Origin: Pseudomonas sp. TMP9
GTDB taxonomy: Bacteria > Pseudomonadota > Gammaproteobacteria > Pseudomonadales > Pseudomonadaceae
Length of the DNA: 64,000 nt
Reading direction: 5' to 3'
Assembly (NCBI RefSeq): GCF_037943105.1
Contig: NZ_CP149803.1
Coordinates: 2,150,001-2,214,000 of the forward strand
Position 1 is the stretch's first letter. Every line of letters starts with the position of its first letter. The notes below the pieces were generated by a model that did not search any database, had not been told where the DNA came from, and was given only the letters and a program-made list of their open reading frames with translations. This document shows positions 15,094 through 33,403 of this stretch, in pieces. The translations under genes and the position numbers were made by a program.

Positions 15094-15786
15094 TTATAGC
15101 GCCGCATTCGGCCAAACCTGCCGTGCGCTGCGCAACGCACGTTGCGCAGCTTCGCCGCGGCCTTGCTGTTGTAAATCACGGGCTGCATTCAGCCACACGT
15201 CCTTATCGGCTTGCGCGGGTAATTGGCTGGTCGGCTGAATCAGTACCGCCCAGCGCCCCGCTTCGCTCCAAGCATTATCAAAGCTGGCGAAGCTGGTGTA
15301 CCAACGCCGGGAATTGCCTGAACGCAGCACCAGCGTGCGCTCGCGCTGGTCATAGCCAACCAACACAGCAAACTGCGAGCCTGGCCCAGCAAACAGGCGA
15401 TCTTGCATCAGCAATACCGGGTGCCCAGCCGACACCTGCTGCATCAGAGCGTCCAAATTGCCGGGCAAGGGATAAACCAACAGCTCATAAGACCGCGCCG
15501 CCGCTGCAAGCGCGGCTTGTGGGCTTTGCCCTTTGGCCAGCTGCTGCATGCGCTCATCGACCAATCCTGGGCTGCTGATAACCCCGTGATGATTAAGCAG
15601 CGCCGCTAATGCCGAGGGCCCGCCCTGTGCATCACTGAGTTGAAAGAACGGCACATCTGCCAACTCGACGCGCTCAGGCAGCTGCTTGGTTTGCGGGAGC
15701 AACTGCGGCCCACTTGCGCAAGCGCCAAGCAGCAAAAGCATGCCGAGTGGTAGAAGTCTTAACGCCCGAATTGACTGAAACATCAC
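15094..15786 (-). CDS. PA2778-like C39-fold lipoprotein lacking catalytic residues
   Basis: 230 residues with a lipoprotein signal (LLPLGMLLLLGAC, lipobox Cys near 23) and a C39-peptidase-like domain; the C-terminus has one TPR-like helix pair (LQQQGRGEAAQRALRSARQV). In this family the active Cys sits in QCGPAAL and the His in a segment like HFAVLVGYD. Here they read QGGPSAL and SQFAVLVGYD, so Cys became Gly and His became Gln. I infer a catalytically dead, perhaps substrate-binding, protein anchored to the outer membrane. The usual second gene of the pair (PA2779-like) is not beside it. Family assignment is from memory of motifs. Confidence 0.72.
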   Translation of the reverse strand: MMFQSIRALRLLPLGMLLLLGACASGPQLLPQTKQLPERVELADVPFFQLSDAQGGPSALAALLNHHGVISSPGLVDERMQQLAKGQSPQAALAAAARSYELLVYPLPGNLDALMQQVSAGHPVLLMQDRLFAGPGSQFAVLVGYDQRERTLVLRSGNSRRWYTSFASFDNAWSEAGRWAVLIQPTSQLPAQADKDVWLNAARDLQQQGRGEAAQRALRSARQVWPNAAL

Positions 15787-17999
<2,213 letters not shown>

Positions 18000-18003
<4 letters not shown>

Positions 18004-18344
18004 AGCAGGCGCCAAAACGCACGCCGCCTGCCAGCCCCAGCCTAGCGGAACAGGTCGGCGCCAAGGCGACACGCAAACTCAAAGCACGGCGCAACGGCGC
18101 CCCCGGCGTCTGGTTCGGCCTCGGCATGATGGGCTTGATCGGTTGGTCGGTGGCCGTGCCCACACTGCTGGGCGCAGCGCTCGGCCTGTGGCTCGACCAG
18201 CACTATCCCGATGGCCGTTCCTGGACCCTGGCACTGCTGATGGCGGGCCTGACCATCGGCTGCTTGAACGCCTGGCACTGGGTCTCCCAAGAAGACCGGG
18301 CGATGCACGCCGAACCGGAGGATGAGGATGATCGACAACCCTAA
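18000..18344 (+). CDS. atpQ: N-type ATPase accessory membrane protein AtpQ
   Basis: 114 residues, TTG start overlapping the atpC stop (TTGA). A basic N-terminus (KRTPPASPSLAEQVGAKATRKLKARRNG) is followed by two transmembrane helices at about 36-62 and 74-95 and an acidic tail. It is the AtpI/AtpZ-like small protein placed after atpC in all N-ATPase operons. Its role may be rotor assembly or Mg2+/cation supply; this is not settled. Confidence 0.85.
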
Positions 18345-18675
18345 CTGGCTGGCCGGAATCGCAGCGCTGCTAGCAGGCGGTGCGCTGGGTACGGTGTTCT
18401 TCGCTGGCCTGTGGTGGACGGTACGCCGTGCCGCCGACTCGGCGACACCGGCGACACCGGCGCGCTGGTTTATCGCCAGCCTGATTGTGCGCACCGCCAT
18501 CGTACTCGCGGGTTTCTACATGGTCGGTGCGACGCAGCCGCTGCGCCTGGGGCTGTGCCTGCTAGGGTTTGTACTGGCACGTGTGCTGGTCTTACGCATC
18601 ACCCGCCCGAACCCCGCCGCACTTGCGCCATCGGCATCACCCCTGCATTCGCGAGGAAAACCACCATGCGCCTGA
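18328..18675 (+). CDS. atpR: N-type ATPase accessory membrane protein AtpR
   Basis: About 115 residues with three hydrophobic segments (about 9-30, 46-66 and 72-90). The Arg residues in the membrane segments (for example SLIVRTAIVLAGF) are a known AtpR trait, proposed to touch the c-ring glutamate during ring assembly. The ATG at 18328 has a GGAGG site 6 nt upstream; an ATG 6 nt earlier (18322) is an alternative. It overlaps atpQ by 17 nt and atpB by 10 nt. Confidence 0.85.
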   Translation: MIDNPNWLAGIAALLAGGALGTVFFAGLWWTVRRAADSATPATPARWFIASLIVRTAIVLAGFYMVGATQPLRLGLCLLGFVLARVLVLRITRPNPAALAPSASPLHSRGKPPCA

Positions 18676-19367
18676 CCCCCGACAACTGGATTTTCTGGGA
18701 GTACGGCTTTATCAAGCTCAACGCCACTATTGTCTTCACCTGGGCATTGATGGCCGTGTTGGTGGTGGGCGCTGCGCTGATCACTCGGCGCCTTGCCACC
18801 GGCCATGAACGTTCGCGCTGGCAGAACCTGCTGGAAATCGTGGTGACGGCGATCATGGGCCAGATCAAGGATGTCGGCCTGCAGAACCCACGTCGCTACC
18901 TGGCCTTTCTCGGCACCCTGTTTCTGTTTGTCGCCGCCGCCGCGCTGGCCACCGTGATTCCCAGTTACGAGCCGCCGACCGCATCGCTGTCGACCACAGC
19001 CGCGCTGGCCCTGTGCGTATTGGTGGCAGTGCCGCTATTCGGCATTTCGGGCCAGGGCCTAGGTGCCTACCTGAAATCCTATATGCAGCCGACGCTGATC
19101 ATGCTGCCCTTCAACCTGATCAGCGAAGTCTCACGCACCCTGGCGCTGGCGGTGCGCCTGTTCGGCAACATGATGAGCGGCGCGATGATCATCGCCATCC
19201 TGTTATCGATCACGCCTTTTGTGTTCCCCATCGTGATGACCGTGCTGGGGCTGCTCACCGGCATGGTCCAGGCCTACATCTTCACCATCCTCGCGGCGGT
19301 GTACATCGCCGCCGCCACCCGCAGCAGCAAGGCTGCCGAGGCGCCTTCGCCCGCACCAGAAGCCTGA
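18666..19367 (+). CDS. atpB: N-type ATPase subunit a
   Basis: 233 residues, five or six transmembrane helices. The essential stator arginine is R164 in TLALAVRLFGNMM, and the C-terminal helix keeps QAYIFTILAAVYI. It forms the ion half-channels beside the c-ring. The start is ATG 18666, overlapping atpR by 10 nt with GAGG ahead. The long open frame upstream to 18411 is in the atpR region and lacks family sequence. Confidence 0.93.
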   Translation: MRLTPDNWIFWEYGFIKLNATIVFTWALMAVLVVGAALITRRLATGHERSRWQNLLEIVVTAIMGQIKDVGLQNPRRYLAFLGTLFLFVAAAALATVIPSYEPPTASLSTTAALALCVLVAVPLFGISGQGLGAYLKSYMQPTLIMLPFNLISEVSRTLALAVRLFGNMMSGAMIIAILLSITPFVFPIVMTVLGLLTGMVQAYIFTILAAVYIAAATRSSKAAEAPSPAPEA

Positions 19368-19408
19368 CTGCTGCCCTCCCCTAATCCACTCACACAAAGG
19401 CATACCTT

Positions 19409-19699
19409 ATGGACGCTCTTACCCTAATCGCCGTCGCTTCCATCGTTATGGCGGGCCTGACCACCGGTTTCGGCACAATGGGGCCCGCGTTGGCCGAAGG
19501 TCGCGCAGTCTCGGTGGCGCTCACCGCGCTGGCTCAGCAGCCTGATGCATCGGCCACCATCACCCGTACGCTGTTTGTCGGCCTGGCGATGATCGAGTCC
19601 ACGGCGATCTACTGCTTCGTGGTGTCGATGATTCTGATTTTCGCCAACCCGTTCTGGAATGCCGCACTGACTGCAGCCTCCCAGGCGGCAGGCAAATAA
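19409..19699 (+). CDS. atpE: N-type ATPase subunit c (two-carboxylate site)
   Basis: 96 residues, a two-helix hairpin. Ion site residues are visible: E63, S64, T65 and Y68 in helix 2 (MIESTAIYCF), which match the Na+-binding set of sodium c-rings, and E30 in helix 1 (GPALAEGR) where well-studied Na+ rings have Gln. The set fits N-ATPases. It is compatible with Na+ but a double carboxylate can also favour H+; one Burkholderia N-ATPase ring has been reported as H+-specific. The gene has an AAAGG site and a 41-nt gap after atpB. Confidence 0.94.
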   Translation: MDALTLIAVASIVMAGLTTGFGTMGPALAEGRAVSVALTALAQQPDASATITRTLFVGLAMIESTAIYCFVVSMILIFANPFWNAALTAASQAAGK

Positions 19700-19702
19700 A
19701 CC

Positions 19703-20476
19703 ATGCTTATCGACTGGTTCACCGTCGGCGCACAGTTGCTCAACTTCATCATTTTGGTTTACCTGATGAAGCGCTTTCTCTATCAGCCGGTGCTCGACGC
19801 CATCGCCGCGCGCGAAGCGAAAATCGCCACCGAGCTGGCCGATGCTGCTGCCACCAAGGCCAAAGCGCACCAGCAGCAGGCTGAGTTCGAGCAGAAAAAT
19901 CAGACCTTCGACGAACAGCGCGCCGCCTTGCTAAGCGAAGCCACCGAGGCCGCCAATACTGAACGTGAGCGCTTGTTGGCTGAGGCGCGCAAGGCGGCCG
20001 AGGGAGCGAGTGCAGCGCGGGCGAAAACACTGCAGGCCGACACCCAGGCGTTGCATGCTGAGATCGTCCGAAAGACGCAGCACCAGGTGTTCGAGATTGC
20101 CCGCCGGGTGCTGGCCGATCTGGCTGACGTCAGCTTGGAACAACGCGCTTGCGCGGTGTTTATTCAACGTTTGCAGGCCGTTGATGGCGCAACGCTGGCC
20201 GCCTTGAGTACGGCGCTCAAGGCCACCTCCGCCGAGGCACCGGCCTTGCTGCGCAGCGCCTTTGCTTTGCCAGCCGAGCAGTTAGCCACGATTCAGGCGG
20301 CGCTGGATGAAACCTTTGGCCAGCCGATTGCACTCAAGGTTGAGACCGCGCCCGACGTGGTCAGCGGCATCGAACTCAGCGCGCAAGGGCAGAAGCTGGC
20401 CTGGAGCATTGCCGACTACCTGACCAGCTTGTCCGCCACGCTGAACGAACACCCCGCTGAGATGGGCGCCGCATGA
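19703..20476 (+). CDS. atpF: N-type ATPase subunit b with delta-like C-terminus
   Basis: 257 residues, much longer than the 156 or so of a plain b subunit. One N-terminal membrane helix (about 5-25), then a long charged coiled coil (25-130), then a region ending [20 protein letters not shown] that resembles the C-terminal part of F1 delta/OSCP. N-ATPase operons have no separate delta gene, so this extension probably does the F1-binding job. Starts 3 nt after atpE and overlaps atpA by 4 nt. Confidence 0.9.
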
Positions 20477-22056
20477 CCACGGCCAGCCCCGACAACAGCC
20501 TGCGCAGTGTTTACGACGGCGCGTTCGCCGGCATTCAGCAGTGCGTGCAATCTTTCAGCGCGCAACTGCTGCCGCGCGAGGTGGGTTCCATCGTCAGCGT
20601 TTCCACCGGCATCGCGCGGATTAATGGCTTACAGAATGTCGGCTTCGAGGAGCTGCTGGTGTTTCCCGGTGGACTGTCAGGCATCACCTTTAACCTCGAT
20701 GAGGACGGCGTTGATGTGGTGTTGCTCGGTGACTACGCGCACCTGCATGCCGGTCAGGAAGTGCAACGCAGCGGCCGGGTAATGGACGTTGGCGTCGGCG
20801 ATGCTTTACTCGGTCGGGTGATCGACCCGCTAGGGCGACCGCTGGATGGCCTCGGCCGCGTATTAACCGAACAACGCCTGCCCATCGAGCGACCGGCCGC
20901 GCCGATCATGGATCGCGCTCCGGTGACCGAGCCTTTGCAGACTGGGCTGAAAGTACTCGATGCGCTGATCCCTATCGGGCGTGGCCAGCGTGAATTGATC
21001 CTCGGCGACCGGCAGACCGGCAAGACAGCGATTGCCCTGGACACCATTTACAACCAGCGCGACAAGAACGTGCTCTGCGTTTACTGCGCCATCGGCCAGC
21101 GCGCCTCGGCGGTGGCCAAGGCGGTGGCGAATCTGCGTGCCAAGGGCGCACTGGCCTACACCGTGATGGTGGTGGCCGAAGGCAACGAAGCGCCGGGGCT
21201 GTCCTACATTGCGCCGTACGCCGCCACCAGCATCGCCGAGCACTTTATGGAGGCCGGCCGTGATGTGCTTATCGTCTACGACGACCTCACCCACCACGCG
21301 CGGGCTTACCGCGAACTGTCGCTGCTGCTGCGCCGCCCACCGGGGCGTGAGGCCTTTCCGGGGGACATCTTCTATATCCACTCGCGCATGCTGGAACGCG
21401 CCACCCACCTCAACGAGGCGCGCGGTGGTGGCTCGCTGACGGCGCTGCCGATTATCGAGACCGAGGCGCAGAACATCTCGGCCTATATCCCGACCAACCT
21501 GATTTCCATCACCGACGGGCAGATCGTGTTATCGCCATCGCTGTTTGAGCTGGGCGTGCTGCCGGCCATTGACGTTGGCCAATCGGTCTCGCGGGTCGGT
21601 GGCAAGGCCCAGCGCGCGGCTTATCGCGCGGTGGCCGGCGATCTTAAGCTGGCCTATGCACAGTTCGAGGAGCTGGAAACCTTCGCACGCTTCGGCGCGC
21701 GCCTGGATGAAGAAACGCGGCAGTCCATCGAGCACGGCAAACGCATCCGTGCCTGCCTAGGCCAAGCCGAATTCTCACCGGTCTCGGTGCCCGCGCAGAT
21801 CGCCATTCTGCTGGCGCTGAATACCAAGCTGTTCGACCCGGTAGCGCTCGAGCGTATGGCGGCGGCCCAGCAAGCGGTTGAGGAAGCCGCCAATGCATTA
21901 GCCGATGAGCTGCGCACACGCCTGAGCGGTGTCGACAAATTGACCGACGCCGACCGTGAGCAGGTTAGCGCTGCGGCCCGTCAGGCGCTTGCCGCCTTTT
22001 CCAGCACCGACAACGCCGCCCCTGGCGCCAAGACTGCAATCGAGAAAACCCCATGA
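20473..22056 (+). CDS. atpA: N-type ATPase alpha subunit
   Basis: 527 residues, non-catalytic nucleotide-binding subunit of F1. Walker A GDRQTGKT at 178-185, [36 protein letters not shown] and the alpha/beta signature region ([18 protein letters not shown]) are intact. It overlaps atpF by 4 nt and the following HPF-like gene by 4 nt (ATGA), indicating coupled translation. Confidence 0.95.
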
Positions 22057-22421
22057 AAATCCAGATCAATACCGACAATCACATCGACGGCAGTGCCGAA
22101 CTGTCCGCGCACATCAGCGCCACGCTTGAGCAGGCGCTGCAGCGCTTTAGCGAACAGATCACCCGCGTTGAAGCGCATCTCAGCGACGAGAATGGTGACA
22201 AGAGCGGCCAGCATGATCAGCTGTGCATGCTTGAGGCCCGCCTCAAAGGGCGCCAGCCGGTAGCCGTGACCGAGTTCGCCGCCACCCAGGAGCAAGCGGT
22301 GCATGGTGCCGCGCAGAAAATGGTGCATCTGCTGGACAGCACGCTCGGCCGGCTGAACAAGCATCGCGATAAGACCTCCGCTGCGCCGGTGCCCGATAGC
22401 GAAGATACGCCAAGCGCATGA
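22053..22421 (+). CDS. HPF/RaiA-family ribosome-associated protein inside the N-ATPase operon
   Basis: 122 residues. The N-terminal 100 residues fit the beta-alpha-beta-beta-beta-alpha S30AE/HPF fold: [13 protein letters not shown] strand, helix [15 protein letters not shown], strand [11 protein letters not shown], strand [18 protein letters not shown], and helix [25 protein letters not shown] and RaiA bind the 30S decoding centre and idle ribosomes in stress or stationary phase. It lacks the C-terminal dimerisation domain of long HPF. It overlaps atpA and atpG by 4 nt each, so it is a true operon member, yet it is not part of the known atpDCQRBEFAG set. Function in this place is unknown. Confidence 0.85.
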
Positions 22422-23338
22422 CCACCACCCTGACCGCACTGCGCCGGCAGATAGGCAGCGCCGGGGATCTCAAGTCCGTGGTGCGCACCATGAAGGCTTC
22501 AGCGGCGTCGGCCATTGGTCAGTATGAGCAGTCGGTGGCGGCGCTCGCCGACTACGCCCGCACGGTCGAGCTTGGCCTGAGCCTGTGCCTGCGGGCAGTC
22601 GATCCACAGGGCGCACAGCGTCAGGCGCCTAATACAACGACCGCTGACGCGGTGGTGCACGCCATCGTGTTTGGCTCCGACCAGGGCCTAGTGGGGCGCT
22701 TTAACGAGGTGGTGGTTGAGCATGCGCTGGCACAGTTGTCGCAGTCCTTAGACAAGACCACGGTTAAGGTCTGGGCGGTCGGCGAGCGCGTACAGGCGCG
22801 CCTGATCGGTGCGGGCATAGACCTGGAAGGTTCATTTGCGGTGCCGGGGTCAGTGGCGCTGATCACCCAACTGGTGGGGCAAATTCTGCTGACGGCTCAG
22901 CTGCCTGATGACCCAGCGATGAGTGCAATGCCACGCGCCACGCTGCTGCTGTTCTATAACCGGCCCAGCGAATCTGGCTACAGCCCTGTAAGCCAGAGGC
23001 TACTGCCGTTAGACGCCGCGTGGCAGCGTGAGCTGGCGGCTCAAGCCTGGCCCACGGCGCAACTGCCAGAGGTGCTGGGTAACCCTGCGCCGGCGCTGCA
23101 AGCCTTTATCCGCGAGCACCTGTTTGTTTCGTTGTTTCGCGCCAGTGCCGAGTCGTTGGCCAGTGAGAACGCCAGCCGTCTCGCCGCCATGCAGCGTGCT
23201 GATCGCAATATCGGCGAACTGCTGCAGAGGCTACAGGCTAATTTTCATCAGTTACGCCAAGCCAGCATCGACGAGGAACTTTTTGATGTGATCGCCGGTT
23301 TCGACGCCTTGCTGCCCCACGACGCCGGCGACACATAA
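22418..23338 (+). CDS. atpG: N-type ATPase gamma subunit
   Basis: 306 residues. Both ends show F1 gamma: N-terminal coil TALRRQIGSAGDLKSVVRTMKASAASAIGQYE and C-terminal coil ASENASRLAAMQRADRNIGELLQRLQANFHQLRQASIDEELFDVIAG. The central Rossmann-like part contains FGSDQGLVGRFN. It is the rotor shaft. Starts with 4-nt overlap after the HPF-like gene; last structural gene of the ATPase. No terminator is visible after it. Confidence 0.92.
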   Translation: MTTTLTALRRQIGSAGDLKSVVRTMKASAASAIGQYEQSVAALADYARTVELGLSLCLRAVDPQGAQRQAPNTTTADAVVHAIVFGSDQGLVGRFNEVVVEHALAQLSQSLDKTTVKVWAVGERVQARLIGAGIDLEGSFAVPGSVALITQLVGQILLTAQLPDDPAMSAMPRATLLLFYNRPSESGYSPVSQRLLPLDAAWQRELAAQAWPTAQLPEVLGNPAPALQAFIREHLFVSLFRASAESLASENASRLAAMQRADRNIGELLQRLQANFHQLRQASIDEELFDVIAGFDALLPHDAGDT

Positions 23339-23471
23339 ACCTAGCCCTCAAGCCCGTGTGTTCGTTGTCGAACAGACAGCTCGGCAGACGGCGCTCAGAC
23401 TGGTAACTGAAACCACATCAACCCACGTTCTAGACGCTGCGGTTGGTCACCTCACTGCAAAGGTATTTGCT

Positions 23472-23720
23472 ATGAACCAGCCTTACTCGGACGTATACCG
23501 CTACATCGTCAAAGAGCTCACACCCACCGCGCACAAGCCGGATGAGGTGTCGCTGAGCATCGTCTGCGAGCCCGTCAATGCGCCGGGGCATCAGAGCACG
23601 GTAACCCTGCACCTTGAGCCAGGCACCACGATGGCCGAAGCGCAAGAGATTGCCGATACACTGCAAAGCAAGGTCAAAGGGCTCTTTCATACGCAGGTCA
23701 AAAAGAATGACCGCGGGTGA
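23472..23720 (+). CDS. Small protein of unknown function (82 aa)
   Basis: Not recognised. ATG at 23472 with AAGG about 8 nt upstream; an upstream in-frame start at 23358 lacks a site. The protein is soluble, mixed alpha/beta by eye (strands VSLSIVCEPV and STVTLHLEPG, then helix MAEAQEIADTLQSKVKGLF) with one Cys and a basic tail. Its stop overlaps the GTG start of arcD, so it is translationally coupled with the arginine transporter. It lies 133 bp after atpG. Confidence 0.6.
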   Translation: MNQPYSDVYRYIVKELTPTAHKPDEVSLSIVCEPVNAPGHQSTVTLHLEPGTTMAEAQEIADTLQSKVKGLFHTQVKKNDRG

Positions 23721-25189
23721 GCGTCGCTGACGCAAACAAAGCCAACAGCGCCGCACCACCCGACGCAACCCTTGCCAAAAAACCCGCCTCGAAACTGGGG
23801 TTGACCCTGCTGGTGGCGCTGGTGGTTGGCTCGATTCTCGGCAGCGGTATCTTCGGCCTGCCGCAGAACATGGCGGCCGGTGCAGGTGCCGGCGCCATTT
23901 TGATCGGCTGGACCATTACCGGCATCGGCATGCTGTTGCTGGTGCGGGTTTACCAGATGCTCTCGATGCGCAAACCCGATCTCGACAACGGCGTCTACGC
24001 CTACGCCCGCGCATTGTCAGGTGAGTACGTCGGTTTCAACTCGGCCTGGGGTTACTGGATCAGCGCCTCGATCGGCAATGTTGGCTATTTGGTGGCGGCG
24101 TTCGGCGCGCTGGGTTACTTCTTCCCGATGTTCGGTACAGGCAATTCACCAGCCGCTATTGCGGGTGCTTCGATCGTGCTGTGGGTCATCCACCTGTTGG
24201 TGTTGCGCGGCATTCAAGGTGCTGCGGTGCTGAATGCGCTGGTCACACTGGCCAAGATTGTGCCGCTGCTGCTGTTTATTGCGCTGGTCGCCATGGCCTT
24301 CAAAGTGGAAACCTTTAACTTCAACTTCTGGGGAGCTGCCAGCCTCGGCTCGGTGCTTGATCAGGTCAAGAGCACCATGCTGGTTACGGTCTGGGTGTTT
24401 ATCGGCATTGAAGGCGCCAGTGTGTATTCGGCGCGGGCGCGCAAGCGGGAAGATGTTGGCCGCGCCACGGTCATCGGCTTTCTGATCTGCCTGCTGTTAT
24501 TGATGTCGGTGTCGCTGCTGTCGCTCGGAATATTCAACCAGCCGACGCTGGCCGGCCTGAAAAACCCATCGATGGCCGGCGTGCTGGAGGACGCTGTTGG
24601 CACCTGGGGCGCGGTACTGATCTACGTCGGCCTGATTGTCTCGGTCGGCGGCGGCTTCCTGGCCTGGATGCTGTTGTCGGCGGAATCCCCGTTCACCCCA
24701 GCAGGCGGCGGCGTGATGCCGAAATGGCTGGGGCAGACCAACGACAAGCACGTGCCGGCCAACGCCCTGTGGCTAACCAACGGCATGGTGCAGTTGTTTC
24801 TGATTCTGACGCTGTTCTCCAAGGCGTCTTATCTGGCGCTGATCTCACTGTCCACCGCAATGATTCTGCTGCCTTACCTGTTCAGCGCCGCCTACGGTCT
24901 GTTGCTGGCATGGCGGGGCGAGGGTGTCAAAGCGGCCATCAAGCCTACTGACGTACCCATCGCGGGGCTGGCCACGCTCTACTGCCTGTGGCTGCTGTAC
25001 GCCGCAGGCTTTAAGTACTTGCTGCTCAGCGCCCTGCTCTATGTGCCGGGTGTGTTGATCTATGCCTGGGCCAAGCGGCAACGCCAAGAAACGCTTTTTA
25101 CCCCGTGGGAGTGGCTGATTTTGGCCGGTCTTATTGTGCTGTCCGGTGTAGCGGCGGCATTGCTTTACAACGGCCAGCTGAGTCTGTGA
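23717..25189 (+). CDS. arcD: Arginine/ornithine antiporter, first copy
   Basis: 490 residues, twelve to thirteen membrane helices of the APC superfamily. The N-terminal [23 protein letters not shown] is the substrate-site signature. It is close in sequence throughout to the second ArcD in this window (28673), for example [15 protein letters not shown] and [18 protein letters not shown]. It exchanges arginine for ornithine without energy cost in the arginine deiminase pathway. GTG start overlapping the upstream small gene by 4 nt. It carries a longer, basic N-terminal tail than the second copy. Confidence 0.9.
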
Positions 25190-25241
25190 TGCCTGCTCTC
25201 GACCCCTTCATTTCACTGTGTGCGAAAAGGAAATTAACACC

Positions 25242-26459
25242 ATGAGCCAAGGTCTGAATTCTGAAATCGGTCGGCTACGCCGCGTGTTGGTGTGCCGTCC
25301 TGGCTTGGCGCAGCAGCGTCTGACTCCCGCTAACTGCCGCGATTTGTTGTTCGATGATGTGCTCTGGGTAGAGCAGGCGCGTAATGATCACGACGCCTTT
25401 ACCAATGCCATGCAAAGCCGCGATGTTGAAGTGCTGGAGCTGCACAACCTACTGGCCACCACCGTGACTGACCCAGCCGCCCGCTCGTGGCTGCTGGACC
25501 GCAAGCTCGCCCCCGGCACAGTCGATACCGAGCTGGCGCAGCAGCTGCGCCCTTGGCTGGAAGACCTGCCGCCCATGCGCTTAGCGGAACACCTGATCGG
25601 CGGCTTAGCCCGGGCTGAACTGCCGTTTGAGCCAGATGGCCTGTTAGCCCGGTATGCCAACGCCAGCGACTTCCTCCTACCGCCACTGCCAAACACCCTG
25701 TTTAGCCGCGACAGCAGTTGCTGGATCGGTGAGGGCGTGGTCTTGTGCCCGATGTATTGGCCTGCACGCCGCCAGGAAACTTTGCTCACCGCTGCGGTTT
25801 ATCGCTTTCACCCGCTGTTTGCCGGCAACGTCACCACCTGGTGGGGTGACCCGGACGTCGACCACGGCGGTGCCACTCTAGAGGGTGGTGATGTGATGCC
25901 GCTGGGTAATGGTGTGGTGTTGATCGGCATGGGTGAACGCACCTCACCGCAGGCAGTCAGCCAACTGGCTCGCGCCTTATTTGCCCAAGGTGGCGCCACA
26001 CGAGTACTGGCCGCACAAATCCCGAAATCCCGGGGCGCCATGCACCTGGATACAGTGTTTACGTTCTGCGACGTCGACCTGGTGACCAGCTTCCCGGAAA
26101 TGGTTGATGCGATCCGCGTGCACAGCCTACGCCCGGGTGATCGTGAAGGCAGCGTGGATGTACACACCGAAACCAAGCCGTTTTTACAAGTAGTCGCCGA
26201 AGCATTGGGCTTGGCCAAACTGCGTTCCGTGGCCACCGGCGGCGACGCTTGGCAGTCCGAGCGTGAGCAGTGGGACGACGGTAACAACCTGCTGGCATTA
26301 GCGCCGGGCGTGGTCATGAGCTATTCACGCAACACTCACACCAATACCTTGCTGCGCAAGGCTGGCGTTGAGGTCATCACCGTTCCGGGTTCTGAGTTAG
26401 GCCGCGGCCGTGGAGGCAGCCATTGCATGTCGTGCCCCATTGAGCGCGACCCCATCTGA
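25242..26459 (+). CDS. arcA: Arginine deiminase, first copy
   Basis: 405 residues. Converts arginine to citrulline and ammonia. The catalytic Cys is in GGSHCMSCP near the C-terminus; the other site residues lie in [33 protein letters not shown] and the N-terminal [17 protein letters not shown]. The start ATG 25242 ([10 protein letters not shown]) has AAAAGGAAA upstream; an in-frame start at 25218 is less likely. It follows arcD by 52 bp without a terminator. It is a diverged paralogue of the arcA at 30121. Confidence 0.93.
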
Positions 26460-26481
26460 CCCCTATTGACGGCGGCAACCC

Positions 26482-26621
26482 CACATCGAGCCATTGCTGG
26501 CGCTCTACCCGGCGAACATGGCGCTGCTGCAAGCCACGCCATATAAGGCGGTGCGGATGGCAGCGCTTTACTCAAACCGCCGGGGCAACTGTATAAAGAT
26601 TACGACCCCAGTGGCAGGTGA
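26482..26621 (+). pseudogene. Possible frameshifted remnant of a coding sequence
   Basis: One frame reads IEPLLALYPANMALLQAT...RMAAL up to about 26567; shifting the frame gives LKPPGQLYKDYDPSGR and a stop at 26619-26621. The two parts together look like a protein C-terminus broken by an indel. I do not recognise the family. The surrounding gap (26460-26767) holds no other gene that I can support. Confidence 0.3.
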
Positions 26622-26767
26622 CGGCCCAGATGGATGTGGACGCCCAGCCACTCGCGGATGCGCTCGGAACTGTAACGCCGATCTGCTGATCCCAGACAAT
26701 ACGGCGTGCAATCTATTGGCGTATACAGGTGCTCATAATGTCTCGGTAGATAAACCAAGGTGGCGCG

Positions 26768-27715
26768 ATGGACTTTAAGGATTACTACAAAATACTCGGC
26801 CTTGAGCCGGGGGCCGATGACAAGGCAGTCAAAGCGGCCTACCGCAAACTGGCACGCAAATACCACCCCGATGTCAGCAAAGAAAAGGGCGCCGAGGATA
26901 AATTCAAGGAAGTCGCCGAAGCCTATGAAGTGCTGAAAAGCGCCGAAAAACGCGCTGAGTACGATGAGCTGCGCAAATACGGCCAGCAAGGCAAACCCTT
27001 TGAGCCACCGCCCGGCTGGCAACCCCGTGGCAACTCCGGCTTTACCGATGAAATGGGCGGCGGCGGTGATTATTCGGACTTTTTCGAATCGCTTTTTGGT
27101 GGCGCCGGACGCTCTCAGCGAGGCCCGCGCAACAGTTCACGACGCGGGCAGGATGTGGAAATGGAATTAGCGCTGCTGCTGGAAGAAACCCAGACGCAGG
27201 ACACCAAGCAAATTGCCTTTCAGCTGCCGCAATACAGCCCTAACGGCCAACCACTGCCAGCCATCAATAAGACCCTCAACGTAAAAATCCCACCTGGCGT
27301 GACTAACGGCGAGCGCATTCGCCTGAAAAATCAGGGTGCTCCGGGTGTGGGCGGTGCTGCGAATGGTGATCTGTACCTAATCATCCGCTTGGTGCCGCAC
27401 CCACTGTTCGATGTCGAGGCCTCCAACCTGATTCTCACTGTGCCCTTGGCGCCTTGGGAAGCGGCGTTAGGCGGCTCAATCACGGTGCCCACGCTGACCG
27501 GTAAAATCAGCCTGCGTATTCCCGCTAACACCCAAAGTGGGCAGCGGCTGCGCATCAAGGGCAAGGGCCTGCTGACCAAATCCGCGGAACCCGGCGATAT
27601 GTTTGCCCTGTTCAAAATCGTCATTCCCGCTCAGGCTGACGAAGCCACGCGTGCGCTCTGGGCGCAGCTGGCCGAGCAAGCCGCTTTCAACCCGCGCGCG
27701 CAGTGGAGTCAGTGA
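26768..27715 (+). CDS. cbpA: Curved DNA-binding protein / DnaJ-like co-chaperone
   Basis: 315 residues. J domain at 1-70 with HPD at 33-35 ([11 protein letters not shown]), a Gly/Phe-rich linker with [18 protein letters not shown], and two C-terminal beta-barrel domains ([54 protein letters not shown]). There is no DnaJ zinc-finger. CbpA stimulates DnaK and also binds curved DNA in stationary phase. It overlaps cbpM by one base. Confidence 0.95.
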
Positions 27716-28017
27716 TGAGTAGCCTGATCATGCAACTAAGCACCCACGAACTTTGCCTGTGCGCCGAGCTGCCACAGACAGTCCTGCTGGAAATTGTCGA
27801 GCACGGCATTGTCGAGCCCAGCGGCCAAACGCCGGAACAATGGCAGTTCGACGCTGACGCGCTGATCATCGTCAAGCGCGCCTATCGCCTGCAAGCCGAA
27901 CTGCAGATTGACTGGGCCGGTGTCGCCTTAGCGCTGCAGTTACTGGATGATTTGCAACAACTGCGCGGTGAAAACAGCCACCTGCGCCAACGCTTAAACC
28001 GCTTCGAAGAACCCTAG
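27715..28017 (+). CDS. cbpM: CbpA modulator
   Basis: 100 residues, all-helical with a MerR-like N-terminal fold (LSTHELCLCAELPQTVLLEIVEHGIVEP, then WQFDADALIIVKRAYRLQAEL). CbpM binds the J domain of CbpA and blocks both its DnaK stimulation and its DNA binding. The ATG at 27715 overlaps the cbpA stop (TGATG), so the two are made together, as in E. coli. Confidence 0.92.
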   Translation: MSSLIMQLSTHELCLCAELPQTVLLEIVEHGIVEPSGQTPEQWQFDADALIIVKRAYRLQAELQIDWAGVALALQLLDDLQQLRGENSHLRQRLNRFEEP

Positions 28018-28596: not shown

Positions 28597-28610
28597 TTGA
28601 CCCAAATCAA
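28597..28610 (+). promoter_or_regulatory. Anr/FNR box upstream of arcDABC
   Basis: TTGACCCAAATCAA matches the Anr consensus TTGAT-N4-ATCAA with one mismatch. It lies about 63 nt before the arcD start codon, so a transcript starting near 28645 would place the box at about -41, as in the P. aeruginosa arc promoter. It predicts oxygen-limited induction of the operon. Confidence 0.85.
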
Positions 28611-28672: not shown

Positions 28673-30100
28673 ATGACGGAGTCAACACGCAAACTTAAAC
28701 TGGGTGCCTTGGTTGCCCTCGTTGTGGGGTCGATGATCGGCGGGGGCATATTTTCGTTGCCGCAAAACATCGCGGCCAGCGCCAGCGCCGGCGCAACACT
28801 GGTCGGCTGGCTTATTACCGGGGTCGGTATGTTGACCCTGGCCTTCGTCTTCCAGACCTTAGCCAACCGCAAGCCTGAGCTGGATGGCGGTGTCTACGTT
28901 TACGCCAAGGCCGGCTTTGGCGATTACATGGGCTTCTCATCAGCCTGGGGCTACTGGATCAGCGCGTGGATCGGCAACGTCAGCTACATGGTCCTGTTGT
29001 TTGCCACCCTCGGCTATTTCTTCCCGGTATTTGGGGAGGGCAACAACCTCGCGGCCATCATCGGTGCGTCGGTGGTGCTGTGGCTGCTGCATTTCTTGGT
29101 GCTGCGTGGCATCCACGAAGCCGCCTTTATCAACACCCTGACCACTGTCGCCAAGATTGTGCCCCTCGCGGTGTTCATCGTCATCGCCGTCATCGCGTTC
29201 AAGCTGGATGTATATACCGCTGATTTCTGGGGCAGCAATAACCCCGAATTGGGCAGTGTGATGGACCAAGCCCGCAACATGATGCTGGTTACCGTCTGGG
29301 TGTTTATCGGCATTGAAGGCGCGAGTATTTTCTCCGCCCGCGCTGAAAAACGTTCAGATGTGGGCAGGGCCACGGTGGTGGGTTTTATCGCTGTGATGCT
29401 GCTGTTGGTTATGGTCAACCTGCTGTCCCAAGGCATCTTGGCGCAAGCCCAATTGGCAGGCTTAAAAAACCCATCGATGGCCGCTGTGCTGGAACATGTG
29501 GTTGGGCCTTGGGGCGCGATGCTGATCAGTGTCGGCTTGATCATCTCCCTCGCCGGGGGGTTACTGTCTTGGACTTTGCTGTGTGCCGAAATCCTCTTTA
29601 CCAGCGCCAGTGACCACACCATGCCGGCCTTCCTGCGCAAGGAAAACGCCAACAAGGTGCCGGTCAATGCCCTGTGGCTTTCTAACGGTTTAATCCAGCT
29701 GTTCTTAGTCATCACCCTGTTTAACGATGCCACTTACTTAAAACTGCTGTACCTGGCCACCTCGATGATTCTGGTGCCGTACTTCTGGTCCAGCGCGTAT
29801 GCCCTGCTCCTGACGGTGCGCGGTGAGACTTACGCTGGCGAGGCCGGTGAACGCAACAAGGACATGTTGATTGCGCTGATCTCTACCGTCTATGCCGTAT
29901 GGCTGGTGTATGCCGCCGGTGTGCAATACCTGCTCCTCTCGGCATTGCTCTATGCCCCCGGTGCCATCCTATTCGCCATGGCCAAGCGCGAGCTGGGTCA
30001 ACAGGTGTTTACCGGGGTAGAAAAAGTGATTTTCATCGGCGTGCTGGTTGGCGCAGCGATTGCGGCTTACGGCCTGTATGACGGGTTCTTGAGCATCTAA
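28673..30100 (+). CDS. arcD: Arginine/ornithine antiporter, second copy
   Basis: 475 residues, APC-superfamily membrane protein with the N-terminal [23 protein letters not shown] signature and twelve or so helices. First gene of arcDABC. Imports arginine in exchange for ornithine, feeding arginine deiminase. GGAGAG ahead of the ATG; an Anr box lies upstream. It is shorter at the N-terminus than the copy at 23717 but clearly paralogous along its length. Confidence 0.94.
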
Positions 30101-30120
30101 TTGGCAAAAGGACAGAGTGC

Positions 30121-31377
30121 ATGAACACTGCAAAAATCAAACTGGGCGCCCATTCCGAAGCGGGCAAACTGCACAAGGTATTGGTCTGCTCGCCTGGCTT
30201 GGCGCACTTGCGCCTAACCCCGGACAACTGCGACGAACTGCTGTTCGACGACGTTATCTGGGTTAGCCAGGCTAAACGTGACCACTTCGACTTTGTCAGC
30301 AAAATGCGCGAGCGTAATATCGAAGTGATCGAGATGCACAACATGCTCACCGACGTGGTGCAAAACCCAGAAGCGCTGAAGTGGATTCTCGACCGTAAAA
30401 CCTCAGCTAACCACGTGGGCGTCGGCCTGCACAATGAAGTACGCAGCTGGCTGGAAAGCCAAGAGCCGCGCAAGCTGGCTGAGTTTTTAATTGGCGGCGT
30501 ATCGGGGGCTGACCTCAATGCCAACGGCGGCAGCGACATGGCCAAGATGTTCAGCGACTTCCTCGGCGCATCCAGCTTTATCCTGCCTCCCTTACCTAAC
30601 ACCCTGTTCACCCGTGACAACAGTTGCTGGATCTACGGTGGCGTGGTGCTCGACCCGATGTACTGGCCCGCACGCAGACAGGAAACCCTGTTGATGACGG
30701 CCATTTATAAATTCCATCCGGACTTTATAAATGCCGACTTCAAGGTCTGGTACGGCAACCCGGATGAGGACCATGGCGCGGCTACGCTGGAAGGCGGCGA
30801 TGTGATGCCCATTGGCAACGGCGTGGTTTTGATCGGTATGGGTGAACGTAGCTCCCATCAAGCCATCGGCCAGTTAGCGCAATCGCTGTTCAAAGCCGGC
30901 GCCGTACAACGGGTCATCGTTGCCGGCCTGCCAAAATCCCGTGCAGCCATGCATTTGGACACCGTATTCAGCTTCTGCGACCGCGACCTGGTGACCATCT
31001 TCCCCTCGGTGGTCAACCAGATTGTGGCCTTCAGCATTCGTCCCGATGAAAGCATGCCGGGCGGCCTGGATATCCGCCGCGAACCTAAACCATTCCTCGA
31101 CGTAGTGGCCGAGTCGCTGAACCTAAAAAAACTGCGGGTGGTGCAAACCGGCGGCGACAGCTTTGAAGCCGAGCGCGAGCAGTGGGACGACGGCAATAAC
31201 TTGATTTGCTTGGAGCCCGGGGTGGTCATCGGCTATGACCGCAACACCTTCACCAATACCTTGCTGCGTAAAGCTGGCGTGGAAGTCATCACCATCAGTG
31301 CCAGCGAGCTTGGCCGTGGCCGTGGCGGCGGTCACTGCATGACCTGTCCGATCATCCGCGACCCGATCGATTACTGA
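30121..31377 (+). CDS. arcA: Arginine deiminase, second copy
   Basis: 418 residues, the usual length. The C-terminal [17 protein letters not shown] carries the nucleophilic Cys, and [34 protein letters not shown] and REQWDDGNN provide the guanidinium-binding acids and His. AAAGGA precedes the ATG, 20 bp after arcD. It differs from the copy at 25242 by scattered substitutions and a short extra segment around residue 140. Citrulline from it goes to ArcB. Confidence 0.97.
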
Positions 31378-31453
31378 GTCTTTTTCAATGGCGTTGCACT
31401 TTAAAACCCAACGCCGCTGACCTTACGTTTAATTTCTGCAGAGGCAACTCAAC

Positions 31454-32464
31454 ATGGCTTTTAACATGCACAACCGCAGCCTCCTCAGCCTGATGCACCA
31501 CACCCAGCATGAGCTGCGCTTTCTGCTGGACCTGTCCCGTGACCTTAAACGCGCCAAATACACCGGCACCGAACAGCAACACCTAAAAGGCAAAAACATT
31601 GCCCTGATTTTTGAAAAAACCTCGACCCGCACCCGCTGCGCGTTTGAAGTGGCGGCCTACGACCAAGGTGCCAATGTCACCTACATCGATTCGACCTCCT
31701 CACAAATCGGCCACAAAGAGAGCATGAAAGACACTGCTCGCGTGCTTGGCCGCATGTTTGACGCGATCGAGTACCGCGGCTTCGGTCAGGAGATCGTCGA
31801 AGAGTTGGCCAAGTTTGCTGGCGTGCCGGTGTTTAACGGCCTAACGGCCGAGTTTCACCCCACACAAATGATTGCTGACGTGCTGACCATGCTTGAACAC
31901 AGCGACAAGCCTTTGCATGAAATCAGCTACGCCTACCTGGGCGACGCCCGCTACAACATGGGCAATTCACTGCTGATGATCGGTGCCAAACTCGGTATGG
32001 ATGTGCGCATTGGCGCGCCCAAAGCCCTCTGGCCAACAGAAGAATTTGTCGCCCAGTGCCAGCGTTTTGCCGAAGAGAGTGGCGCGCGCATTACGCTGAC
32101 GGAAAACCCCGAAGAAGCGGTCAAAGGCGTCGATTTCATTCACACCGACATTTGGGTGTCCATGGGTGAGCCGGCCGATGCTTGGGACCAGCGCATCGCT
32201 CAACTGCTGCCCTACCAGGTGAACGCAAACATGATGAAAGCAGCCGGCAACCCACGGGTGAAATTCATGCATTGCCTGCCGGCTTTTCACAACAGCGACA
32301 CCACGGTGGGTAAAGACATTGCCTCGCGCCATCCAAACCTGGCGAACGGCGTTGAAGTGACCGAAGAGGTCTTTGAGTCGCCCGCCAACCTGGCCTTCGA
32401 ACAAGCGGAAAACCGCATGCACACCATCAAGGCAATTTTGGTCTCGACCCTCGCCAACCTTTAA
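31454..32464 (+). CDS. arcB: Ornithine carbamoyltransferase, catabolic
   Basis: 336 residues. Carbamoyl phosphate site [20 protein letters not shown] (STRT motif), the FHPTQ loop, DARYNMGNS and the ornithine-binding MHCLPAFH are all present. In the arc operon it runs phosphorolysis of citrulline to ornithine and carbamoyl phosphate. 76 bp after arcA, 6 bp before arcC, with AGAGGCAA ahead of the start. Confidence 0.97.
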
Positions 32465-32470
32465 GGAGCC

Positions 32471-33403
32471 GTGACTATGCGCATCGTTGTCGCCCTCGGT
32501 GGTAATGCTCTTTTACGCCGTGGTGAACCCATGACGGCGGACAATCAACGCAACAACGTGCGCATTGCCACTGAACAAATCGCCAAAATTGTCGCCGGCA
32601 ACCAGCTGGTCATCGCTCACGGCAATGGCCCGCAGGTGGGTTTGTTAGCCTTGCAGGCGGCGGCTTACACCTCGGTTAACCCCTACCCCTTGGATGTCCT
32701 TGGTGCAGAAACCGAAGGCATGATCGGTTACATGATTGAGCAAGAGCTGGGCAATCTGTTGCCGTTTGACGTGCCATTCGCCACCTTGCTCACCCAAGTA
32801 GAAGTCGACCCCAACGACCCGGCCTTTGCCAACCCCAGCAAACCCATTGGCCCGGTTTACAGCCACCAAGAAGCTCTGCGCTTAGCCAAGGAAAAAGGCT
32901 GGAATATCGCCGCCGATGGCGATCAATTTCGCCGCGTTGTGGCCAGCCCACGACCCAAGCACATTTTTGAAATCCGCCCGATTAAATGGCTGCTGGATAA
33001 AGGCACCATCGTCATCTGCGCCGGTGGTGGCGGTATTCCAACCCAGTACAAGGACGGCAAACTGCAAGGCGTCGAAGCGGTAATCGATAAAGACCTTTGC
33101 AGCGCATTGTTGGCTGAGCAACTGGAGTGCGATTTGCTAGTCATCGCCACCGACGTTAACGCCGTCTTTATCGATTGGGGCGAGCCGACACAAAAAGCCG
33201 TGGCTAGCGCTCACCCCGATGCGCTGGAGAAAATCGGGTTTGCTGCCGGCTCCATGGGGCCAAAAGTTCAGGCCGCGTGTGAGTTTGCCCGCAACACCGG
33301 CAAGGCCGCGGTAATCGGCTCTTTGGCCGAGATTGAAGCCATTGTTAACGGCCACGCCGGCACACGCATCAGCATCGCCGCAGCCGGCATCAGCTACCGA
33401 TAG
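32471..33403 (+). CDS. arcC: Carbamate kinase
   Basis: 310 residues. Amino-acid kinase fold with [20 protein letters not shown] at the N-terminus, [14 protein letters not shown], and [12 protein letters not shown] and the nucleotide-binding [12 protein letters not shown] toward the C-terminus. Makes ATP from carbamoyl phosphate and ADP, the energy-yielding step of the arginine deiminase pathway. Follows arcB by 6 bp with AAGGAG ahead. Last gene of arcDABC. Confidence 0.97.

Follow-up and report, generated by a model that had tools for sequence, protein, structure and literature searches.

The N-ATPase operon of Pseudomonas sp. TMP9 carries one gene more than the known operon, inserted between atpA and atpG, and the product of this gene is predicted to have the fold of the ribosome hibernation factors HPF and RaiA. 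The gene lies in the window analyzed here, a stretch of 64,000 nucleotides (contig NZ_CP149803.1, positions 2,150,001 to 2,214,000 of the forward strand). The best reading of the arrangement is that a Balon-HPF dormancy cassette has become lodged in the operon of an ion pump, with only the HPF found in the window. More specifically, the gene probably encodes a short hibernation factor of the HPF/RaiA type that is carried as cargo in the alpha/gamma junction, that is of a kind at home in a Balon-HPF pair, and that would be produced together with the pump; our confidence in this reading is modest. It is based on the gene itself, the fold and kinship of its product, the junctions on either side, the recurrence of the arrangement, the existence of an insertion hotspot, and the partner gene present in relatives.

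The surrounding genes form a full N-ATPase operon, in which the order DCQRBEFAG is kept apart from the insert (Table 1). The beta, a, b(delta), alpha and gamma subunits exceed the NCBIfam cut-offs for the "alternate F1F0" families, AtpR and an AtpQ-type protein are present, epsilon was recognized by Pfam, and c was recognized by position and sequence. In the accessible text of three publications on N-ATPases (PMC5376962, PMC11738941, PMC4154653), the operon order is given as atpDCQRBEFAG, and the enzymes are described as usually residing beside another rotary ATPase and as presumed ion pumps that consume ATP. The window has the same subunits in the same order and differs from this known operon by the one gene between atpA and atpG. 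The NCBIfam and Pfam matches to the subunits thus bear out the initial annotation, which had described an N-ATPase operon in the atpDCQRBEFAG order plus one gene.

Table 1. Genes of the N-ATPase operon in the window and the adjoining arginine deiminase pathway genes
Feature	Position in window	Strand	Basis
atpD, N-ATPase beta (start codon uncertain)	16089..17618	+	TIGR03305, 868 bits, over cut-off
atpC, epsilon (ORF; true start probably further in)	17503..18003	+	PF02823, 51.5 bits
atpQ-type small membrane protein	18000..18344	+	TIGR02230, 143 bits
atpR	18322..18675	+	PF12966, 81 bits
atpB, subunit a (ORF from 18411; start estimated from profile match)	18666..19367	+	TIGR03306, 362 bits, over cut-off
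atpE, subunit c	19409..19699	+	Position and sequence only, no profile basis
atpF, fused b/delta	19703..20476	+	TIGR03321, over cut-off; PF00430 and PF00213
atpA, N-ATPase alpha	20473..22056	+	TIGR03324, 870 bits
hpf-like gene (S30AE protein, 122 aa)	22053..22421	+	PF02482; AlphaFold model; best PDB matches 7m4z_v and 8rd8_D
atpG, N-ATPase gamma	22418..23338	+	TIGR03323, 356 bits
Arginine-ornithine antiporter, downstream	23717-25189	+	TIGR03810, over cut-off
Arginine deiminase, downstream	25218-26459	+	TIGR01078, over cut-off

The position and family of the extra gene had also been correctly recognized at the outset: the open reading frame, the match to PF02482 and both junctions were confirmed. 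The ATG of hpf overlaps the stop codon of atpA in an ATGA at 22053-22056, and its own stop overlaps the start of atpG in a second ATGA at 22418-22421. The match to the Pfam family Ribosomal_S30AE (PF02482) scores 27.0 bits against a curated cut-off of 23.7, and the match to the NCBIfam HPF/YfiA equivalog TIGR00741 scores 24.3 bits against a cut-off of 40.9. Judged from these profile scores, the predicted protein is a member of the S30AE superfamily that falls outside the canonical HPF equivalog as NCBI draws it. The C-terminal dimerization domain of long HPF is absent, the protein having 122 residues and PF02482 as the only domain found, so that it does not belong to the long form. An AlphaFold model built from 37 sequences has a mean pLDDT of 84 and presents a strand, a helix, three strands and a helix, which is the beta-alpha-beta-beta-beta-alpha order of the HPF/RaiA fold; residues 110-119 form a floppy tail with pLDDT below 50. 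The profile search and the structure prediction that had been proposed as a check therefore both found the S30AE fold, and a different fold is ruled out by the model and its Foldseek matches.

The closest solved relative by sequence is chain v of 7m4z (E 8.9e-21), an entry in which hpf is bound to the Acinetobacter baumannii 70S ribosome (according to the accessible text of PMC8263017). The same chain ranks first in Foldseek, with a TM-score of 0.94 on the target and 44% identity over 100 columns, and the second rank is held by 8rd8_D, from a ribosome entry with Balon and RaiA; chain D is taken to be RaiA from its fold and the entry title. All of the 32 best PDB fold matches (E up to 0.001) are chains of HPF, RaiA, YfiA, pY or RafH structures or of ribosome entries. 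An alignment of 37 sequences (the window protein, 26 database proteins and 10 HPFs from the same position in other operons) contains 19 invariant columns, and at 14 of these, read by eye, ribosome-bound 7m4z_v has the identical letter. The window protein therefore resembles short HPF/YfiA (RaiA), with 7m4z_v as the nearest example, in fold, length class, invariant residues and overall identity, but it differs in residing in a rotary-ATPase operon, in being a copy additional to two other S30AE genes, and in scoring below the TIGR00741 cut-off. By analogy with 7m4z_v, it would be expected to bind the 30S/70S ribosome at the mRNA/tRNA path and to stop translation. Its net charge is -6 (-3 for the core); negative charge is weak for an rRNA binder and counts against a role in hibernation, although the ribosome-bound 7m4z_v also has a charge of about -1 over 100 residues by hand count. 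In a simple dN/dS comparison with the nearest relative, L004 (L numbers designate the loci compared), hpf gave 0.20 and atpA 0.065, and purifying selection appears to act on hpf.

The arrangement is not confined to this strain. The window AtpA was used to fetch 80 loci from species genomes, which are the best 80 of 551 confirmed matches rather than a sample. Among these best 80, 12 loci have an HPF detected by a profile of the subfamily, in each case between atpA and atpG, a position referred to below as the slot (L004, L006, L007, L008, L011, L015, L023, L030, L032, L033, L054 and L056). According to the record titles, the carriers include Gamma- and Betaproteobacteria, Lacunisphaera (Verrucomicrobiota) and Pirellulales (Planctomycetota). 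The neighborhood survey suggested in the initial annotation thus recovered atpA-hpf-atpG in other genera and phyla, which rules out uniqueness to this strain. Because the subfamily profile misses canonical HPFs, a second search used a profile made from 17 different S30AE sequences, and neither profile detected an S30AE gene outside the slot anywhere in the 1.08 Mb of the 80 loci. A different picture of frequency came from even draws of genomes, in which N-ATPases other than those of the window or of the draw centers were counted: 7 in 274 genomes for the class, 10 in 397 for the phylum, 7 in 250 for the family of the L011 genome and 4 in 194 for the phylum of the L015 genome, the latter two draws possibly sharing genomes with the former two. 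A slot HPF is absent from all 28 of these N-ATPases. In 27 cases, atpA directly precedes atpG with no room for a gene, and in the remaining one (L196) atpA is out of view; gamma falls below the family cut-off in four (L091, L121, L122 and L123), and L092, with a partial gamma of 138 bits and no alpha in view, was left out of the count. The slot HPF is a recurrent minority arrangement, and its absence from the even draws argues that the pump does not need it. AtpA matches were also found in 107 plasmid records, many of them of the ordinary F-type, and the two N-type plasmid regions that were inspected have no insert at the alpha/gamma junction.

The alpha/gamma junction is a preferred site of insertion within these operons. 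With gaps measured from the stop codon to the start of the next profile match, inserts longer than 250 nt occur at 18 of 79 alpha/gamma junctions, the window included, versus 7 of 474 other operon junctions (0/69, 0/75, 4/78, 3/62, 0/63, 0/63 and 0/64), and two of those seven, at 276 and 293 nt, are close to the threshold. Fisher's test gave p 2e-11, a value that is descriptive because the test treats related loci as independent. The 18 slot inserts comprise 13 with HPF, two with a baeRF gene and no HPF (L022 and L035), and three with neither (L049, L074 and L079). The HPF stop codon overlaps the start of atpG in 10 of the 13 slot loci, by four bases in eight and by one base in two. At the upstream end, overlap between the stop codon of atpA and the start of HPF is found in the window and in L004, and in L015 as well if its HPF begins at the upstream ATG (9593); in L007, L011 and L023 the overlap with the atpA stop involves the start of baeRF rather than that of HPF.

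Other cargo in the slot is varied. A DUF2254 membrane protein is encoded at L049:9641-10969 and L074:9590-10909, in lineages that are apart on the alpha tree. The slot of L022 (9726-13503) extends over 4 kb and holds a family 3 baeRF, a CMAS-type methyltransferase and an AI-2E family transporter. A CitMHS-type ORF occurs in L035 and a DUF29 protein in L033, and the two slot ORFs of L079 gave no match to a Pfam family. In the N-ATPase operon of a Burkholderiaceae metagenome-assembled genome (L034:693-7725), a family 3 baeRF gene lies just before atpC, and genes for a PPK2 polyphosphate kinase and a pyridine nucleotide-disulphide oxidoreductase separate atpF from atpA.

In four of the 12 slot-HPF loci (L007, L008, L011 and L023), the HPF gene is preceded by one for a baeRF family 3 protein of about 385 residues. 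For the L023 protein, the match to 8rd8_B covers residues 18-384 of 384 (E 1.7e-10); this chain was deposited as "Methyl-accepting chemotaxis protein", but it is common to the three Balon entries 8rd8, 8rdv and 8rdw and is therefore taken to be Balon. The five top fold matches of the L023 model are all chains of Balon or Msmeg1130 entries; the model, from 12 sequences, has a pLDDT of 78, the highest among five models of uneven quality, the lowest of which scored 46. The loop GGQ and NIKS motifs are absent from all 12 aligned baeRF relatives, four of which have a GGQ elsewhere, near the C-terminus, and the Balon homologues treated in the accessible text of PMC10901736 likewise lack both loop motifs. 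With near-full-length similarity, the aeRF1 fold and no loop GGQ or NIKS, the L023 slot protein is a member of the Balon family. The window itself has no baeRF partner in the slot and so lacks the Balon/baeRF-HPF pair, and its genome gave no match to the family 3 baeRF profile (PF18845). Loss of the partner is suggested by a 33-residue baeRF-like stretch (30 bits) at L054:8409-8507, before the slot HPF of a planctomycete, and by the sister operons L023 and L030, which differ by the presence of baeRF.

The pairing as such is known. As far as the accessible texts go, gene neighborhoods of baeRF-1 and HPF were reported by Burroughs and Aravind in 2019 (PMC6514570), with stress-response operons being named, and Balon and RaiA were seen together on ribosomes of Psychrobacter urativorans (Nature 2024, PMC10901736). 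The same pairing is found in the four slots just described, and some slot operons, as judged from sequence, encode relatives of both of the proteins seen together on those ribosomes. The published pairs differ in being placed by those texts in stress-response operons rather than in an ATPase operon, and the window differs in having no baeRF partner. Within the main texts of the open-access literature searched (figures and supplements aside), no description was found of an N-ATPase or other rotary-ATPase operon with a hibernation factor or a baeRF-HPF pair. The words ATPase and ATP synthase are absent from the main text of the Balon paper (PMC10901736), and the accessible N-ATPase texts (PMC5376962, PMC11738941, PMC4154653) describe no gene between atpA and atpG, a figure in PMC4154653 marking unnamed intervening ORFs of ATP synthase loci with an X.

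The slot copy is an addition to the S30AE proteins of its hosts. The genome of the window has two further S30AE genes, three in all, which excludes the slot HPF as the sole S30AE protein of the strain, and each of the 12 other slot-HPF genomes has one to three more; their presence in every such genome argues that the slot copy is an extra one. Sampling of 149 genomes of the genus, the strain's own included, showed a relative (E up to 1e-12) in 147, and in none of 29 places inspected does it lie beside ATPase genes. The possibility that the slot HPF is a moved copy of this genus protein was rejected: the strain's own other copy is 45% identical, and eight genus copies group with that copy on a separate starred branch of the tree (100/99). 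Free-standing baeRF-HPF pairs also exist. One (L157) belongs to a Hydrogenophaga genome, in which about 35 kb of a single contig separate it from the slot copy; another is in L181, and L182 has the reversed order, with HPF before baeRF. A clade of the slot HPFs together with L157 is compatible with the data (p-AU 0.55), and an exclusive clade of slot HPFs without L157 is weakly rejected (p-AU 0.032). It is possible that there was a single origin followed by escape, or that there has been exchange.

The distribution of the slot HPF on trees is patchy. A first HPF tree, which left out L178 and counted 120 of 1143 homologous database proteins as non-slot, required 8 changes, at least 4 of them forced, but it was set aside because some of the database proteins may themselves be slot copies; a second tree left out L173 and the database proteins. 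On the alpha tree, a quick tree of 96 rows without a mixture model, the pattern of slot HPF implies 10 changes, of which starred branches force at least 6. When the labels were shuffled, the mean was 12.4 changes, and 10 of 500 shuffles were as low as 10. The slot HPF is thus scattered on the alpha tree, hardly more clustered than expected by chance, and this result slightly weakens the case that the gene is hibernation cargo. A single old cassette lineage with many losses and an exchange between operons at one junction would both fit the pattern.

The main rival explanation is that inserts do no harm at the final junction of the operon, where a mobile baeRF-HPF pair would have left the HPF by chance, with HPF and pump being functionally unrelated. 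Such hitchhiking would account for the assorted other occupants of the slot (DUF2254 in L049 and L074, the methyltransferase and transporter of L022, the CitMHS-type ORF of L035, DUF29 in L033), as well as for the 10 state changes on the alpha tree and the 0/28 in the even draws. It accounts poorly for a slot in which 15 of 18 inserts hold HPF or baeRF when no S30AE gene occurs elsewhere in the best 80 of 551 loci, and for stop/start overlaps in 10 of 13 cases in a gene that appears to be under purifying selection. Accident seems rather unlikely, although it deserves to be taken seriously.

The two remaining explanations assign the insert a role in the ATPase itself. The enzyme contains three copies of alpha and one of gamma, and the hotspot coincides with the junction at which copy number drops from three to one, so that an extra cistron might serve as a spacer that lowers the translation of gamma, with the identity of the inserted protein being secondary. 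This is very improbable, given that 61 of 79 operons lack a long insert, that the cargo is far from random, and that the ATGA overlaps would couple gamma tightly to hpf. Less probable still is that the S30AE fold was put to a new use, assisting the assembly of the N-ATPase F1 or inhibiting it instead of binding ribosomes. The position between alpha and gamma with translational overlap, together with the negative net charge, would suit such a protein; the initial annotation had itself offered recruitment as an assembly factor, for which nothing was found beyond the position. Arguing against it are the 14 of 19 invariant columns in common with ribosome-bound HPF, the pairing with Balon-family proteins in relatives, the lack of a slot HPF in most N-ATPase operons seen, and the close kinship of slot HPFs to the L157 copy, which stands free beside baeRF.

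If the gene is indeed hibernation cargo, its action probably begins with one polycistronic message that would yield both an ATP-driven ion pump and a hibernation factor, the latter presumably co-translated with alpha and gamma. Under energy or ion stress, the pump would spend ATP to hold the membrane gradient, with the ATP possibly coming from arginine deiminase, whose genes adjoin the operon. HPF, bound as in 7m4z, would block the mRNA/tRNA path on the 30S subunit and park the ribosomes, and in some relatives Balon would occupy the A site alongside it. Protein synthesis would stop with the ribosomes being kept, and dormancy would be the common state; in the window's genome, HPF would work by itself or alongside the other two S30AE proteins. 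The arrangement suggests that the pump may be activated together with ribosome dormancy. The initial annotation had proposed that the ribosome factor acts in the physiological state of the pump, and that proposal is strengthened by the Balon-family protein in the slots of L007, L008, L011 and L023, Balon being known as a partner of RaiA on the ribosome; the shared state itself is something that we infer. A broader and more tentative proposal, possible but on balance doubtful, is that the N-ATPase serves as the membrane arm of a dormancy program, in which, in some lineages, a single message for pump, HPF and Balon would keep the gradient charged (with ATP from arginine deiminase or other stores) and the ribosomes locked, and in which the cassette would move across phyla by exchange at the same junction. 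The recurrent tie of N-ATPases to HPF and Balon leads to the hypothesis that some of them serve dormant cells. The operons with slot HPF or Balon are places where such a role is testable by deletion, and for hibernation factors they are a new kind of genomic setting, in which energy and ion stress is the likely physiological trigger.

The region downstream of the operon has several further features. Genes of the arginine deiminase (ADI) pathway (arc) are near the N-ATPase in only four of the best 80 of 551 loci besides the window (L004, L005, L006 and L011), a scarcity that counts against the favored reading. Control of the ATPase operon by ANR was considered and rejected, since no ANR-type site with up to 2 mismatches precedes atpD; the window as a whole has 28 such sites versus 17 expected. 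No sigma-70-type promoter was found in 15700-27900, which, like the lack of an ANR-type site before atpD, counts against the favored reading. A small ORF at 23358-23720, between atpG and arcD, has no Pfam or NCBIfam match, and relatives of it follow atpG in L004 and L013. Besides the arcD-arcA pair after atpG, there is a second, complete arcDABC set at 28673-33400, making two ADI clusters within 10 kb, and the best ANR match in the window, TTGACCCAAATCAA at 28597, lies before this second arc operon. A CbpA/DnaJ-like gene, scoring slightly below the CbpA cut-off, is also located downstream.
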